A DNA stretch of 64,000 nt from positions 1 through 64,000 of the forward strand of contig NZ_JAKFYR010000002.1 of assembly GCF_022554085.1 (NCBI RefSeq), read 5' to 3'. Numbering within the stretch: position 1 is the stretch's first letter; each line of letters starts with the position of its first letter. The notes under the pieces are model-generated. The model made no database searches and had not been told where the DNA came from. It saw only the letters and a list, made by a program, of their open reading frames with translations. Both the position numbers and the translations under genes were made by a program. Shown here one piece after another: positions 4,953-8,919 of this stretch. The stretch comes from Rhodococcus sp. CH91 (GTDB taxonomy: Bacteria; Actinomycetota; Actinomycetes; Mycobacteriales; Mycobacteriaceae).

Positions 4953-5627
4953 GTGCGTCTTGTGATTGCCCGTTGCCGTGTGGACTACATCGGACGCCTG
5001 ACGGCTCATCTGCCGACGGCCCGACGTCTCCTTCTCGTCAAAGCCGACGGTTCCGTGAGTATCCACGCCGACGACCGTGCCTACAAGCCTCTGAACTGGA
5101 TGAGCCCGCCCTGCTGGCTCGAAGAGGAATCCGTCGAGGATGCCGAGGCGCTCTGGGTGGTGACGAACAAGGCGGGCGAGCAGTTGCGGATCACCCTGGA
5201 AGAGGTCGACCACGACTCGAGCCACGAACTCGGCGTCGACCCCGGCTTGATCAAGGACGGCGTCGAGGCGCACCTGCAGGAACTGCTCGCCGAACACGTC
5301 GAGACTCTCGGTGCAGGCTTCACGCTGATCCGTCGTGAGTACCCCACAGCCATCGGACCGGTGGACCTGTTGTGCCGGGATGCCGACGGCGCCACCGTCG
5401 CGGTGGAGGTGAAGCGGCGCGGGGAGATCGACGGTGTGGAACAGCTCACCCGCTATCTCGAACTGCTCAACCGGGATCCGCTGCTCGCTCCGGTCACCGG
5501 CGTCTTCGCGGCGCAGCAGATCAAGCCGCAGGCACGGACCCTGGCCACGGACCGGGGCATCCGCTGCATCGTTCTCGACTACGAGGCGTTGCGCGGTACC
5601 GAGAGCACCGAGTTCAGATTGTTCTGA
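4953..5627 (+). CDS. nucS: NucS/EndoMS mismatch-specific endonuclease
   Basis: Endonuclease of the non-canonical mismatch repair used by actinobacteria that lack MutS/MutL. It cuts both strands at mismatched bases and works with the beta clamp. The 224-aa protein has the family length and the opening [16 protein letters not shown]. The nuclease core shows Asp138 (GPVDLLC) and Glu152 plus Lys154 (VEVKRR), a complete PD-(D/E)xK triad. The GTG start at 4953 has no Shine-Dalgarno sequence but a TAGGGT hexamer ends 6 nt before it, which suggests a leaderless transcript. It diverges from the cyclase gene across 42 bp, as in M. tuberculosis Rv1320c/Rv1321. Confidence 0.95.
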
Positions 5628-5629
5628 TC

Positions 5630-5953
5630 GTGCCGCGTCGCAACAGATCCCGCACCGGCCGCACGCGCGCCGGAGAGACCGGCGACGCTCCGGCCTACTT
5701 CGGGGCCACCGTTCGCACGGAGAACGGTCCCGCGGGCGCGGAGGGGGAGCGTTTCACGGTGCGGACCGTTCCCGGTTCACGCGCCACCAAGCCGTATCGG
5801 TGCCCGGGCTGCGATCACGAGATCGCTCCGGGGACACCGCACGTCGTCGCATGGCCGAGCGACACCCTCGGTGGTGCCGAGGATCGTCGGCACTGGCACA
5901 ACGGGTGCTGGTCGAGTCGGGCGACACGTCGTCCGACGCGGCGCTGGTCCTGA
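5630..5953 (+). CDS. Small conserved actinobacterial protein with CxxC/His-Cys residues
   Basis: A 107-aa basic protein starting at GTG 5630, two nucleotides after nucS stops, so likely co-transcribed with it. The N-terminus is Arg-rich. The centre carries YRCPGCDHEI and, further on, HVVAW and HWHNGCW, a Cys/His spacing that could bind zinc. Streptomyces and mycobacterial relatives are often labelled ATP/GTP-binding protein, but I see no P-loop and do not support that name. It occupies the position of M. tuberculosis Rv1322. Function unknown; the tight coupling to nucS hints at a role in DNA metabolism, which is inference only. Confidence 0.75.
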   Translation: MPRRNRSRTGRTRAGETGDAPAYFGATVRTENGPAGAEGERFTVRTVPGSRATKPYRCPGCDHEIAPGTPHVVAWPSDTLGGAEDRRHWHNGCWSSRATRRPTRRWS

Positions 5954-5972
5954 CCGTCTCCCGTTCCGCACG

Positions 5973-6482
5973 TCATCGGGCGGGGCCGGGAGCGGACGCT
6001 CGCGGGCCCGTGTCACGGACGGCGACGGCCTGCCGAACCTCACGGACCGCCGAGCGGATGGTGTCGCCGTACGGACCGTCGGGAAGTGCGGGCATCCGCT
6101 CCTCGGCACGGTCGAGGTGATCTCCGGCCGCCCGGAACGCGCCGAGACGACGGAAGTCGTCGGCCAGGTTCAGATGGAGGCTCGGGTAGAAGCCCGCGAC
6201 ACGAAGGGCGTCGTGGTGCCGCCGGACGCGTCCGTCGGTGAGCGCATCGGCGGCGTCGAGGGCGCGCACGTCCCATACGAGTGACTCGGCGGGGTCGTCG
6301 CAGAGGTCGGCCAGATGGTGCGCCAGTGTGCAGCGGTGGAGTGGATCGCCCGTCACTCCGATCTGCCGCCAGAGGGACAGCAGGTCGCGCACGGCCGAGT
6401 CGGCATCGCCGCGGTGACCGAGGGCTACGGCGACGGCGATCGCGTCCATCGTGAGATCGGATGTGGTGGGGGCGTCGGACAT
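5973..6482 (-). CDS. Hypothetical helical (TPR-like) protein
   Basis: A 169-aa soluble protein with no signal peptide. It is rich in Ala, Leu and Asp with repeated helix-pair patterns (LGHRGDADSAVRDLLSLW; AHHLADLCDDPAESLVWDVR; DDFRRLGAFRAAGDHLDRAE). These resemble tetratricopeptide repeats, a fold for protein contacts. The start at 6482 is set by a perfect GAGGAGG site a few bases upstream. It lies 29 nt downstream of the MerR/clamp gene on the same strand and is probably in the same operon, so it may be a partner of that regulator (inference). Function unknown. Confidence 0.65.
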   Translation of the reverse strand: MSDAPTTSDLTMDAIAVAVALGHRGDADSAVRDLLSLWRQIGVTGDPLHRCTLAHHLADLCDDPAESLVWDVRALDAADALTDGRVRRHHDALRVAGFYPSLHLNLADDFRRLGAFRAAGDHLDRAEERMPALPDGPYGDTIRSAVREVRQAVAVRDTGPRASAPGPAR

Positions 6483-6511
6483 GGAACCTCCTCGGCGAGA
6501 GCCGGCGTGGG

Positions 6512-7573
6512 TCAGGCTGCGGGGGCGTGGCGGGGCATGACGAGCATGGTGAGATCGCCTTCGTCGGCCGACCGGACCGTGACCGGCAGATCGGGGCCTC
6601 GCAGGTCGAGCATCAGGTCGTCGCCGATCGCGTGACTCCATGCCGGATACACTGTGGTCAGGTCGAACCATGTGGTCAGGCCGGGACCGCTGGCGGTGCC
6701 GTCGAGACATATCTCGTCGCCGTCGACCAGGATCAAGCGAGGCTTGCCACCGGAGGTGTGCAGACCGACGATCTCCGGCGCCTGCTGCTCGAGCACTCTC
6801 ACGACCTGGCGCTTCCCGATCGTGATCCGGTGGGTCACCGGCGGGAGCGATCGCACCAGCAGACGGTGGTCCGGAAATCGATCGGTCAGCAGGCGGCAGT
6901 GGTGGACGTCGCCGTCGACCGTGCGGAAAGCCGACCATCGTTCGTTCGCTTCGATCGTCACCACGGAGCTGCGGCGGAGCCGGGAAGTAAGGGAGCGGAG
7001 TTCGTCGCCCGCAAGCGTGCCCGTCCAGGACGGGGCGACGGAGTGCAGGGGCACCAGCGTTCGGGTGGCGAGCCGGTACCGGTCGGTGGCGGTCAGGGTC
7101 ACCGCGCCGGAATCGGCCTCCACGTGAACACCCCCGAGAACCGGTGCGGCGGGGTCGTGACTCGTGGAGGCCGAGATCTGATCGATGGCTGCGGCCAGGA
7201 CCGGGCCCGGCAAGGTGGCAACGATCGGGCAGGAACCGGAACGGAGGGACGCCCGGAGGTCCGCGGCGACCCGTCGGACCCTGTCCGCCTCGGCGGTCAC
7301 CTCGGCGACCTGCTCGTCGATCAGTCGCGCAGCCTCGTCCGCATCGGCGGCGAAGAAGTCGGCGACGACGGACAACGGCATCCCGATCTCGCGCAATCGG
7401 CGCAGCCGGGAGGCCTGGGCCAGTTGAGACGGACCGTAGAACCGATATCCGGTCGACGGATCGACCCGCTCGGGGCGCAGCAGGCCGGCATCGTCGTAGA
7501 ACCGCAGGGCACTCGCGGTCAGCCCCACGCGTTCGGCGAAAACACCGATCGACATCAACTTCGGGTCCGTCAC
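6512..7573 (-). CDS. MerR-family regulator fused to DNA polymerase III beta-clamp-like domains
   Basis: A 353-aa protein of unusual architecture. Residues ~7-75 are a MerR winged helix-turn-helix (MSIGVFAERVGLTASALRFY, then GYRFYGPSQLAQASRLRRLR), followed by a short coiled linker (~80-112). From ~118 onward the chain reads like the middle domain of DnaN: LPGPVLAAAIDQISAST, then APVLGGVHVEADSG, then LTATDRYRLATRTL. RLLTDRFPDHRLL aligns with the clamp segment RLLDGEFPKYR and leads into a third-domain-like tail. Clamp domain 1 is absent and replaced by the DNA-binding domain. It starts at GTG 7573 (MTDPKLMSIG); an ATG six codons in is an alternative. The domain pairing suggests a DNA-bound regulator or a clamp-derived ligand/protein-binding module. 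Target genes are unknown. Confidence 0.8.
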   Translation of the reverse strand: MTDPKLMSIGVFAERVGLTASALRFYDDAGLLRPERVDPSTGYRFYGPSQLAQASRLRRLREIGMPLSVVADFFAADADEAARLIDEQVAEVTAEADRVRRVAADLRASLRSGSCPIVATLPGPVLAAAIDQISASTSHDPAAPVLGGVHVEADSGAVTLTATDRYRLATRTLVPLHSVAPSWTGTLAGDELRSLTSRLRRSSVVTIEANERWSAFRTVDGDVHHCRLLTDRFPDHRLLVRSLPPVTHRITIGKRQVVRVLEQQAPEIVGLHTSGGKPRLILVDGDEICLDGTASGPGLTTWFDLTTVYPAWSHAIGDDLMLDLRGPDLPVTVRSADEGDLTMLVMPRHAPAA

Positions 7574-7668
7574 GGGGCCATCATCGACCCTCGACCGACT
7601 CGAAGGTCAACCCCCGGCTCCGGAGCATCGACAATCGGCCCCCGGAGTCGTTCGGCGACGCACCCCCG

Positions 7669-8919
7669 TCAGTTGCGGACCTTGCTGGCCACCGCGGGGG
7701 AACGCCCCTGGACACCGGCACCGGCCGAGGGCGGTCGGGGTGCCGTCGAGGCAGTCGGTGAGGGTGAGGATGCGGCCGCACGGGGACCGGTCGCCGAACC
7801 CTGCTGTGTGCTCGGTTGCGGGGCCGTATTCGGTTCTGGTGCCGAACCCTGCCGCTCGTTCCGGACCTCATCGGGCCTCTTCGCATCGGCCTGCGGGATC
7901 CGCGCGGTCTCGTCCGGCGTCGCGGCGACCGGCTCGGCCGCCACCGACGTCGTATCGGCCGAGCCGCCGGCGGCGGGCTTCGCCGAGCCGTCGCCGGCGG
8001 GCTCCTTCGCATCGCGTGCGGGGCCGAGCACCGTCGTGCGGGGTTCGTCGAGGGAGATCTCCCGGTCGAGCAGGTCCCCCTCGCGATTGATCGCTGCCAG
8101 CAGGGTCGGCACGTCGTCGAGCTGTTCGCGAACCGCCTCGAGCTGGCCGAGGATGCGTCCGCGCAGGACACGAAGTTCCTCGGTGAGGTCGCGCGCGTTG
8201 GCCACCTTCCGTTCGGATTGCTCGGTGGCGCGGGTGAGCCGCCGTTCCGCCTCCTGCGTCGCCTGTTCGACGCGGCGCTCGGCTTCGGCCTTGCTCGTCC
8301 GTTCGAGCTCGTCGAGAGCGCCGAGCAGCTTGGTGCGGCGTTCGGCCATGGTGATCTCGAAGTCCTGCTGCACCTGCTCGCGCTTGGCCTGCGCTTCGGC
8401 TCCGAGGCGCTCTGCTTCGGCCCGAGCGGCCGCGACGATGCGATCGGCCTCGCTGCGGGCCGCGGCCATCGTGCGCTCGTGCTCCGCGGCGAACGCGAGA
8501 CGGGTGTCCTCGAGCTCGGCGAGCTTCTTCTCGTAGTCGCCGCGCAGGCGGATGCCTTCCTGCTCCGCGAGCGAGATCATCTCGGCGGCGTCCGCCTCGG
8601 CGCGGGCACGCAGCTCCGAGGCCTCGTCGGAGGCGAGACGCAGCATCCGCGAGATACGGTCGCTCATGCCCTCGGCGGTAGTGGGCGGAACCGACAGCCG
8701 ATCGACATCCTTGCGCAGTTCGTCGATCTCGTTTCGCGCGTTCTCGAGCTGGCGGGCCAGATCCCGGGCCTGCGCCGCCGCCGCGTCGCGGTCGGTGGCG
8801 GTCACGCGCAGCTCGGCCTCGAACCGTGCGAAGTAATTGGTCACCTCGTCGCGGTCGAAGCCCTTACGCACGATGGAGAACGGCAGGTGGCTGGGTGCGC
8901 GATCACGATCGAAGACCAT
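7669..8919 (-). CDS. DivIVA-domain coiled-coil protein
   Basis: A 416-aa cytoplasmic protein. Residues ~10-50 resemble the DivIVA/Wag31 membrane-binding N-terminus (FSIVRKGFDRDEVTNYFARF). Residues ~45-300 form a long Glu/Ala/Arg-rich coiled coil. The last ~110 residues are Pro, Ala and Thr-rich and probably disordered. Known family: polar scaffolds that organise cell-wall growth in actinobacteria. It is too long and too divergent in the tail to be Wag31 itself, so I call it a paralogue or accessory scaffold. A TAGATT hexamer ends 6 nt before the ATG at 8919, which supports the start. It sits between the Rv1322-like and epimerase genes, where M. tuberculosis has none that I recall. Confidence 0.78.
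   Translation of the reverse strand: MVFDRDRAPSHLPFSIVRKGFDRDEVTNYFARFEAELRVTATDRDAAAAQARDLARQLENARNEIDELRKDVDRLSVPPTTAEGMSDRISRMLRLASDEASELRARAEADAAEMISLAEQEGIRLRGDYEKKLAELEDTRLAFAAEHERTMAAARSEADRIVAAARAEAERLGAEAQAKREQVQQDFEITMAERRTKLLGALDELERTSKAEAERRVEQATQEAERRLTRATEQSERKVANARDLTEELRVLRGRILGQLEAVREQLDDVPTLLAAINREGDLLDREISLDEPRTTVLGPARDAKEPAGDGSAKPAAGGSADTTSVAAEPVAATPDETARIPQADAKRPDEVRNERQGSAPEPNTAPQPSTQQGSATGPRAAASSPSPTASTAPRPPSAGAGVQGRSPAVASKVRN

Follow-up and report, generated by a model that had tools for sequence, protein, structure and literature searches.

The locus lies within a stretch of 64,000 nucleotides of Rhodococcus sp. CH91 (the window), and centres on a gene whose product joins a MerR DNA-binding head to two domains of the bacterial sliding clamp DnaN (Table 1). 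The strand of this gene had been left unstated before; the open reading frame is on the minus strand. A promoter of MerR type precedes it, a gene for a TPR-like protein follows it as the second gene of the unit, and nucS and a gene for a DivIVA-like coiled-coil protein lie close by.

Table 1. Coordinates in the window of the MerR–clamp gene, its domains, its promoter and its neighbours
Feature	Position	Strand	Basis and remarks
MerR–sliding-clamp fusion gene	6512..7573	minus	353 aa, GTG start; ORF call, Pfam and hhalign
MerR winged-helix DNA-binding domain (residues 7-75)	7349..7555	minus	Pfam MerR_1, 7.4e-15
Long helix (residues 78-112), a probable coiled coil for MerR dimerisation	7238..7342	minus	suggested by the single-sequence model only
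Clamp domain 2 (residues 121-234)	6872..7213	minus	Pfam DNA_pol3_beta_2, 5.5e-9; pocket residues LTATDRYRLA and FPDHR
Clamp domain 3 (residues ~245-351)	6521..6841	minus	hhalign and column counts; C-terminal MP pocket motif; gap at E. coli 272-275 and 298
MerR-type promoter/operator	7580..7610	minus	-35 TTGACC (7605-7610), 19-bp spacer with dyad (7586-7604), -10 GATGAT (7580-7585)
Second gene of the unit, encoding the TPR-like partner (169 aa)	5973..6482	minus	weak TPR matches; recurrent adjacency
nucS	4953..5627	plus	near the fusion in the window
DivIVA-like coiled-coil protein, directly upstream	7669-8919	minus	neighbour of the fusion, 95 bp before its start

Architecture of the fusion and fate of the clamp parts

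An earlier note on this DNA had proposed that a MerR winged helix here takes the place of the first clamp domain and is followed by the middle and last domains of DnaN in order, and every part of this description holds. The N terminus is a MerR head (a further match, to Pfam MerR, has an E value of 4.4e-11), and the DNA_pol3_beta_2 match exceeds the cut-off of its family. Among the five Pfam families listed up to E = 1, a range in which the HMMER filters drop most matches above about 0.1, no other effector domain is present; TipAS and GyrI-like, which we take to be the names of effector families, do not appear in the list. NCBIfam TIGR00663 (dnaN) matches at 7.3e-10, far below its equivalog cut-off, and the processivity factor PHROG 947 at 2.6e-15 over residues 120-350. 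When nine clamp halves from the Rhodococcus group were aligned by hhalign to 15 DnaN sequences (probability 99.8%, E 4.3e-30), query columns 7-241 fell on DnaN 161-426, that is, on domains 2 and 3 as far as the C terminus. A search of the PDB with a profile of the nine clamp halves found sliding clamps and nothing else at E <= 0.01, with 48 distinct sequences and a best value of 3.7e-19. The profile alignment begins near residue 118, and the clamp boundary previously set at residue 115 is about right. The true, complete dnaN of the genome lies elsewhere, apart from the fusion. The single-sequence structure model is of low confidence (mean pLDDT 48, with the clamp half mostly below 50), and its long helix has a pLDDT of about 61-76, lower toward the end.

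The whole gene is under purifying selection, with dN/dS values of 0.21-0.34 in five pairwise comparisons; for the same five pairs the clamp half gives 0.20-0.35 and the MerR head 0.07-0.24, except for 0.71 in the closest pair, where changes are very few. A fusion spanning both halves was found in 87 of the 251 sampled genomes of the window's family (88 rows, from 91 fusion rows taken after three second pieces had been left out; three of the 91 stop short of profile position 200 and do not count as spanning). Because the architecture recurs so widely in the family and evolves under this constraint, it is more than a chance junction. No description of a MerR–clamp fusion was found in the titles and abstract openings of the papers listed for MerR paired with clamp terms; domain databases may list the architecture. 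Two candidate reports, PMC10421592 and PMC7824862, were discarded, as 'MerR' in their retrieved portions belongs to author names.

Which clamp residues persist was judged from an alignment of 53 fusions and 25 DnaN sequences, without the two broken copies described below, in which 18 pocket columns were taken from a list in the consulted portion of a review (PMC11139829). In the fusions, mean entropy is 0.80 bits over subsite I, 2.09 bits over subsite II and 2.08 bits over the remaining columns (p 5e-5 for subsite I compared with these); the DnaN values are 0.44 for subsite I, 0.48 for subsite II and 1.43 for the rest. Only 13 of 227 columns are near-invariant in the fusions, and eight of them fall within the 18 pocket columns (hypergeometric 3e-7); L155, T172, R176, P242, M362 and P363 are each kept in 52 or 53 of the 53 sequences. 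DnaN itself conserves subsite I, so its conservation in the fusions is inherited; what points to a use is only that it has lasted while other parts diverged. The earlier note had raised the question of whether the pocket residues are kept, and the answer divides the pocket: compared with the DnaN of its own genome, the window's fusion is identical at 9 of 12 subsite I residues and at 1 of 6 residues belonging to subsite II only. Most subsite II residues (the equivalents of N320, Y323 and R365) have been lost in the window's clade, and Streptomyces-like copies of the fusion largely keep subsite II.

Other parts of the clamp have fared differently. Positions 272-275 and 298 (E. coli numbering) of domain 3, which we take to be part of the clamp dimer interface, align to gaps in 48 or 49 of the 53 fusions and in none of the 25 DnaN sequences. 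A lysine or arginine stands at E. coli positions 198 and 205, presumably DNA-contacting basic residues of the clamp, in 4 and 1 of the 53 fusions, compared with 23 and 25 of the 25 DnaN sequences, respectively. The parts that serve ring closure and DNA contact, namely domain 1, the domain-3 segment and the basic contacts, are absent or mostly replaced.

Promoter, recurrent partner and neighbourhood

We compared 57 neighbourhoods (the window and L095-L150), with gene calls from a codon-usage script and neighbour names assigned by eye; the fusion was called in 55 of them and left uncalled by the script in L125 and L130. A strict operator pattern stands upstream of 43 of the 55 fusion genes, whereas of the 742 other genes in these loci only 3 have it. 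All three are TPR genes that precede the fusion in their locus, so the operator goes with the start of the unit. A looser pattern allowed 49 of the 55 sites to be aligned upstream of fusion genes, each with a 19-bp spacer. The search pattern did not include the -10 element, yet at the fixed 19-bp distance its second position is A in 48 of 49 sites and its sixth is T in 49 of 49. A start codon lies six bases past the -10 element in about three quarters of the aligned sites, as does the GTG of the window's fusion, 6 nt past GATGAT. The six loci in which the operator was missed are L128, L129, L143 and L148, where the TPR gene is first (in L129 its start is miscalled and only part of the site is in view), the broken copy L140, and L135, which has a near match.

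The window's genome contains one exact operator match, that of the fusion itself, and six others with 3 mismatches, compared with four for a reversed control. On this evidence the fusion protein most likely controls mainly its own operon, and direct control of distant genes via the operator is unlikely, since only one exact site exists in the genome. The MerR head would bind the 19-bp-spacer promoter of its own operon, and the same promoter plan is described for AlbA in the sections consulted of PMC10189885.

The sole recurrent neighbour is the TPR-like protein of about 160 aa, found in 27 of the 55 loci, directly downstream of the fusion in 23 and directly upstream in 4; in 11 of these 27 loci the two genes share a 4-base overlap. 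Any other neighbour family within seven genes occurs in at most nine loci, and among the recurrent neighbours in the 57 neighbourhoods there is no family for resistance or antibiotic synthesis. The family sample gives the same picture, with the TPR-like gene adjacent and on the same strand in 58 of 88 fusions (47 downstream, 11 upstream), which upholds the downstream operon partner that had been suggested for the window; the remaining 30 fusions lack this neighbour. The partner has weak Pfam matches to TPR families and matches nine chains among solved structures up to E = 1, the best (1.2e-5) being by name a designed protein. Docking of the partner in the clamp pocket was considered and is unsupported, with a clamp-binding motif pattern in just 1 of 28 partner sequences.

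TPR-like genes also occur solo, without a fusion and without a MerR operator. The adjacency count used 97 of the 146 TPR rows, the 49 left out being weaker or second copies, so that counts of solo genes are lower bounds. In three Streptomyces-like genomes (L177-L179; G406, G427 and G777), a solo TPR-like gene lies directly 3' of a uracil-DNA-glycosylase-like gene (3 of 3 loci, named by eye). One site in the Rhodococcus group, between genes that by eye are protein-kinase-like and LuxR-type response-regulator-like, holds the fusion with the TPR gene in L099, the fusion only in L100 and the TPR gene only in L189-L191; L124 belongs to the same site group. Since this site is found with both genes or with either alone, the parts of the unit are lost separately.

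The earlier note had also pointed to nucS, whose position near the fusion is as it said; a functional link finds no such agreement, as nucS is near the fusion in just 4 of the 57 neighbourhoods, all of them the same site in closely related Rhodococcus genomes, two with broken copies of the fusion. The nucS neighbourhood is local. The DivIVA-like gene, too, adjoins the fusion in 4 loci only, all at this Rhodococcus site.

Distribution and mobility

Across the window's class, fusion matches at E <= 1e-29 occur in 21 of 246 genomes, with eight candidates scored per genome as in the family search. In the phylum-wide sample, in which the five best candidates per genome were scored, a match spanning both halves was found in 11 of 396 genomes, all inside the class and none outside it. 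Each of the three samples takes in the window's own genome. No match was obtained among 50,697 phage records at E 1e-5, and three viral-contig matches align solely within query residues 116-192. Four Streptomyces or Kitasatospora plasmids carry the fusion (E <= 1e-10), all four with the TPR-like gene and the operator, and transposition genes are annotated near the unit on three of the four. The plasmid records name the fusion 'MerR family transcriptional regulator' and the partner 'hypothetical protein'. One Kitasatospora and one Streptomyces plasmid (L199 and L200, about 5856-8176) share nearly the same cassette, with 89% DNA identity over 2,325 bp; the TPR-like partner on these cassettes is longer, at 217 aa. 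On the Streptomyces plasmid L197 (971-4426), the unit has a plasmid-borne dnaE about 3.6 kb away and a Ku gene at 7 kb.

In a quick tree, from which L139 and L140 (broken), L142 and L145 were left out, fusions (51 rows) and DnaN (25 rows) fall on opposite sides of one branch (SH-aLRT 89); a single origin of the fusions would fit this split, without being proven by it. The Rhodococcus copies fall in three separate groups and two copies from a Streptomyces-like family (f4) nest among those of the window's family, which suggests horizontal transfer of the fusion.

Broken copies are present in two close Rhodococcus relatives. One has lost an internal part in frame and has its promoter stretch inverted; the other runs out of the clamp part after residue 190. 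In R. gordoniae (L140, G003; about 7901-8006), ~107 bp with the promoter and first codons are inverted relative to the intact relative L095, to which they have 96% identity on the opposite strand, and this copy also lacks part of the clamp half. The second broken copy (L139, G005) occupies the nucS site in a genome closely related to the window's species. From the single recurrent neighbour family, the four plasmids, three of them with transposition genes, the three tree groups and the broken copies, it appears that the fusion, its TPR-like partner and their own promoter often travel as a small mobile unit.

A switch that may read the clamp pocket

The earlier note had suggested a clamp-derived sensor or a regulator, and the MerR head, the operator at its own operon, the retained subsite I and the lost ring parts together make this the best reading. 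In the form towards which we lean, with modest confidence, the fusion would be a self-regulating MerR one-component switch of the TipA/AlbA build, with the clamp pocket as its effector and a foreign clamp-pocket ligand as the molecule that it traps. The MerR heads would bind the promoter at the start of their operon, and the MerR dimer would display two clamp pockets, the effector being clamp domains 2 and 3 stripped down mainly to the peptide and drug pocket, above all subsite I. A molecule that fits the clamp pocket would also bind the pocket of the fusion; the ligand-bound head would then twist the over-long spacer and raise transcription of the fusion and its partner. The extra fusion protein would soak up the ligand, as AlbA and TipA do with antibiotics, and the TPR-like protein would be made alongside it as an effector or adaptor. 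That the fusion binds DNA and forms a dimer, and that it binds a ligand, activates transcription and traps the ligand, are steps that we infer. As the distribution is patchy and mobile, a foreign and intermittent ligand is favoured over an everyday replication protein: most likely the ligand is a clamp-pocket attacker such as an antibiotic of the griselimycin or mycoplanecin type or a phage clamp-binding protein, and less likely an endogenous clamp-binding peptide.

The model for such a switch is TipA, described in the consulted text of PMC7762955 as a minimal autoregulated system in which one gene supplies sensor, activator and neutraliser. AlbA is called a self-regulatory sponge, and its operator is reported nowhere else in its genome, in the consulted text of PMC10189885. 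To the extent that these portions describe them, the fusion would resemble both in its MerR head, its C-terminal ligand domain and the control by one gene of its own over-long-spacer promoter; the placing of the operator at the start of its own operon, with one exact copy in the window's genome, is a further likeness, drawn for the fusion from sequence alone. It differs in that its effector is clamp domains 2 and 3, with no TipAS match, and in its usual TPR partner. With DnaN, it shares domains 2 and 3 in order and subsite I of the pocket, whereas it has neither domain 1 nor the three-domain ring, lacks the domain-3 segment, has mostly replaced the basic DNA contacts, has lost most of subsite II (in the window's clade) and has gained a MerR head.

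The nearest precedents for a second clamp-derived protein come from antibiotic producers. Griselimycin and mycoplanecin are natural ligands of the clamp pocket that use both subsites, and their producers carry a further DnaN gene (GriR or MypR) for self-resistance, according to the consulted part of PMC10817943. The fusion would be another clamp-derived protein able to meet such antibiotics; GriR and MypR, as presented there, are second DnaN genes within a biosynthetic cluster, whereas the fusion is a truncated clamp on a transcription factor, and no cluster of that kind was seen among its recurrent neighbours. Because these two antibiotics use both subsites and the window's version has lost most of subsite II, it may bind them more weakly or have a different ligand. 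The loss of the N320, Y323 and R365 equivalents thus counts against the switch as we read it, as do the solo TPR genes, the fusions without a TPR neighbour and the want of a resistance or biosynthesis family among the neighbours.

Subsite I, which takes the hydrophobic anchor of clamp-binding motifs, is also what makes docking onto replication or repair proteins, as the earlier note had envisaged, possible; that most of subsite II, the seat of the motif's Gln, has gone in the window's clade weakens it. The same residues bear on an alternative that we regard as unlikely, in which the fusion is a sensor of replication or repair stress: its pocket would bind an endogenous clamp-binding motif of a polymerase, ligase or translesion factor once these proteins exceed the free clamp in number, an event that the MerR head would report. 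One of the four plasmid copies lies near Ku and dnaE genes and the three Streptomyces-like solo TPR genes adjoin a glycosylase-like gene, as such a sensor might lead one to expect, but a patchy, mobile and decaying distribution is ill-suited to a core stress circuit, and the nucS link is not conserved.

That distribution, with the two-gene cassette on plasmids, mostly with transposition genes nearby, and decaying in relatives, would suit a phage-response decoy, in which the clamp half lures a phage protein that binds or inhibits the clamp, and the TPR-like protein acts as effector. We nevertheless consider this quite unlikely: the PADLOC defence library matches only the MerR head (mad1) and not the TPR protein, no toxin family is among the weak Pfam matches of the latter, and no defence family was recognised by eye among the recurrent neighbours.

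A caution attaches to the pocket itself. L155, D173 and P242 (of the FP pair) are conserved in clamp domain 1 as well, and domain 1 has no peptide pocket, so that the conservation is in part structural, and R174, Y175, R176, M362 and P363 are the better pocket markers. These shared residues and the loss of most of subsite II would suit a clamp half that is merely a structural dimerisation or scaffold domain with its conserved pocket residues as relics of the fold, but this is very unlikely given that every one of the 53 fusions has R176, M362 and P363, whereas non-pocket columns average 2.1 bits, and that R176 is not conserved in domain 1.

Returning to the self-regulating switch, we put forward only tentatively, and with more doubt than belief, its fullest form, a mobile and self-inducing sensor that mimics the target: the stripped clamp pocket would be both decoy and sensor, catching molecules that fit the clamp and switching on the trap together with the TPR partner. 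The fusion carries a copy of the pocket by which replication and repair proteins and some antibiotics grip the clamp, and it may sense or soak up a clamp attacker. This pocket is an antibiotic target validated with griselimycins, as stated in the consulted part of PMC10817943. If it is true that a widespread, mobile actinobacterial cassette senses or soaks up ligands of the clamp pocket, natural tolerance would have a source that has gone unrecorded, and the search for new clamp inhibitors a ready biosensor. In either case, a hub of replication would have been turned into a sensor for transcription, and plasmid genes annotated only as 'MerR family transcriptional regulator' and 'hypothetical protein' would gain a testable context.
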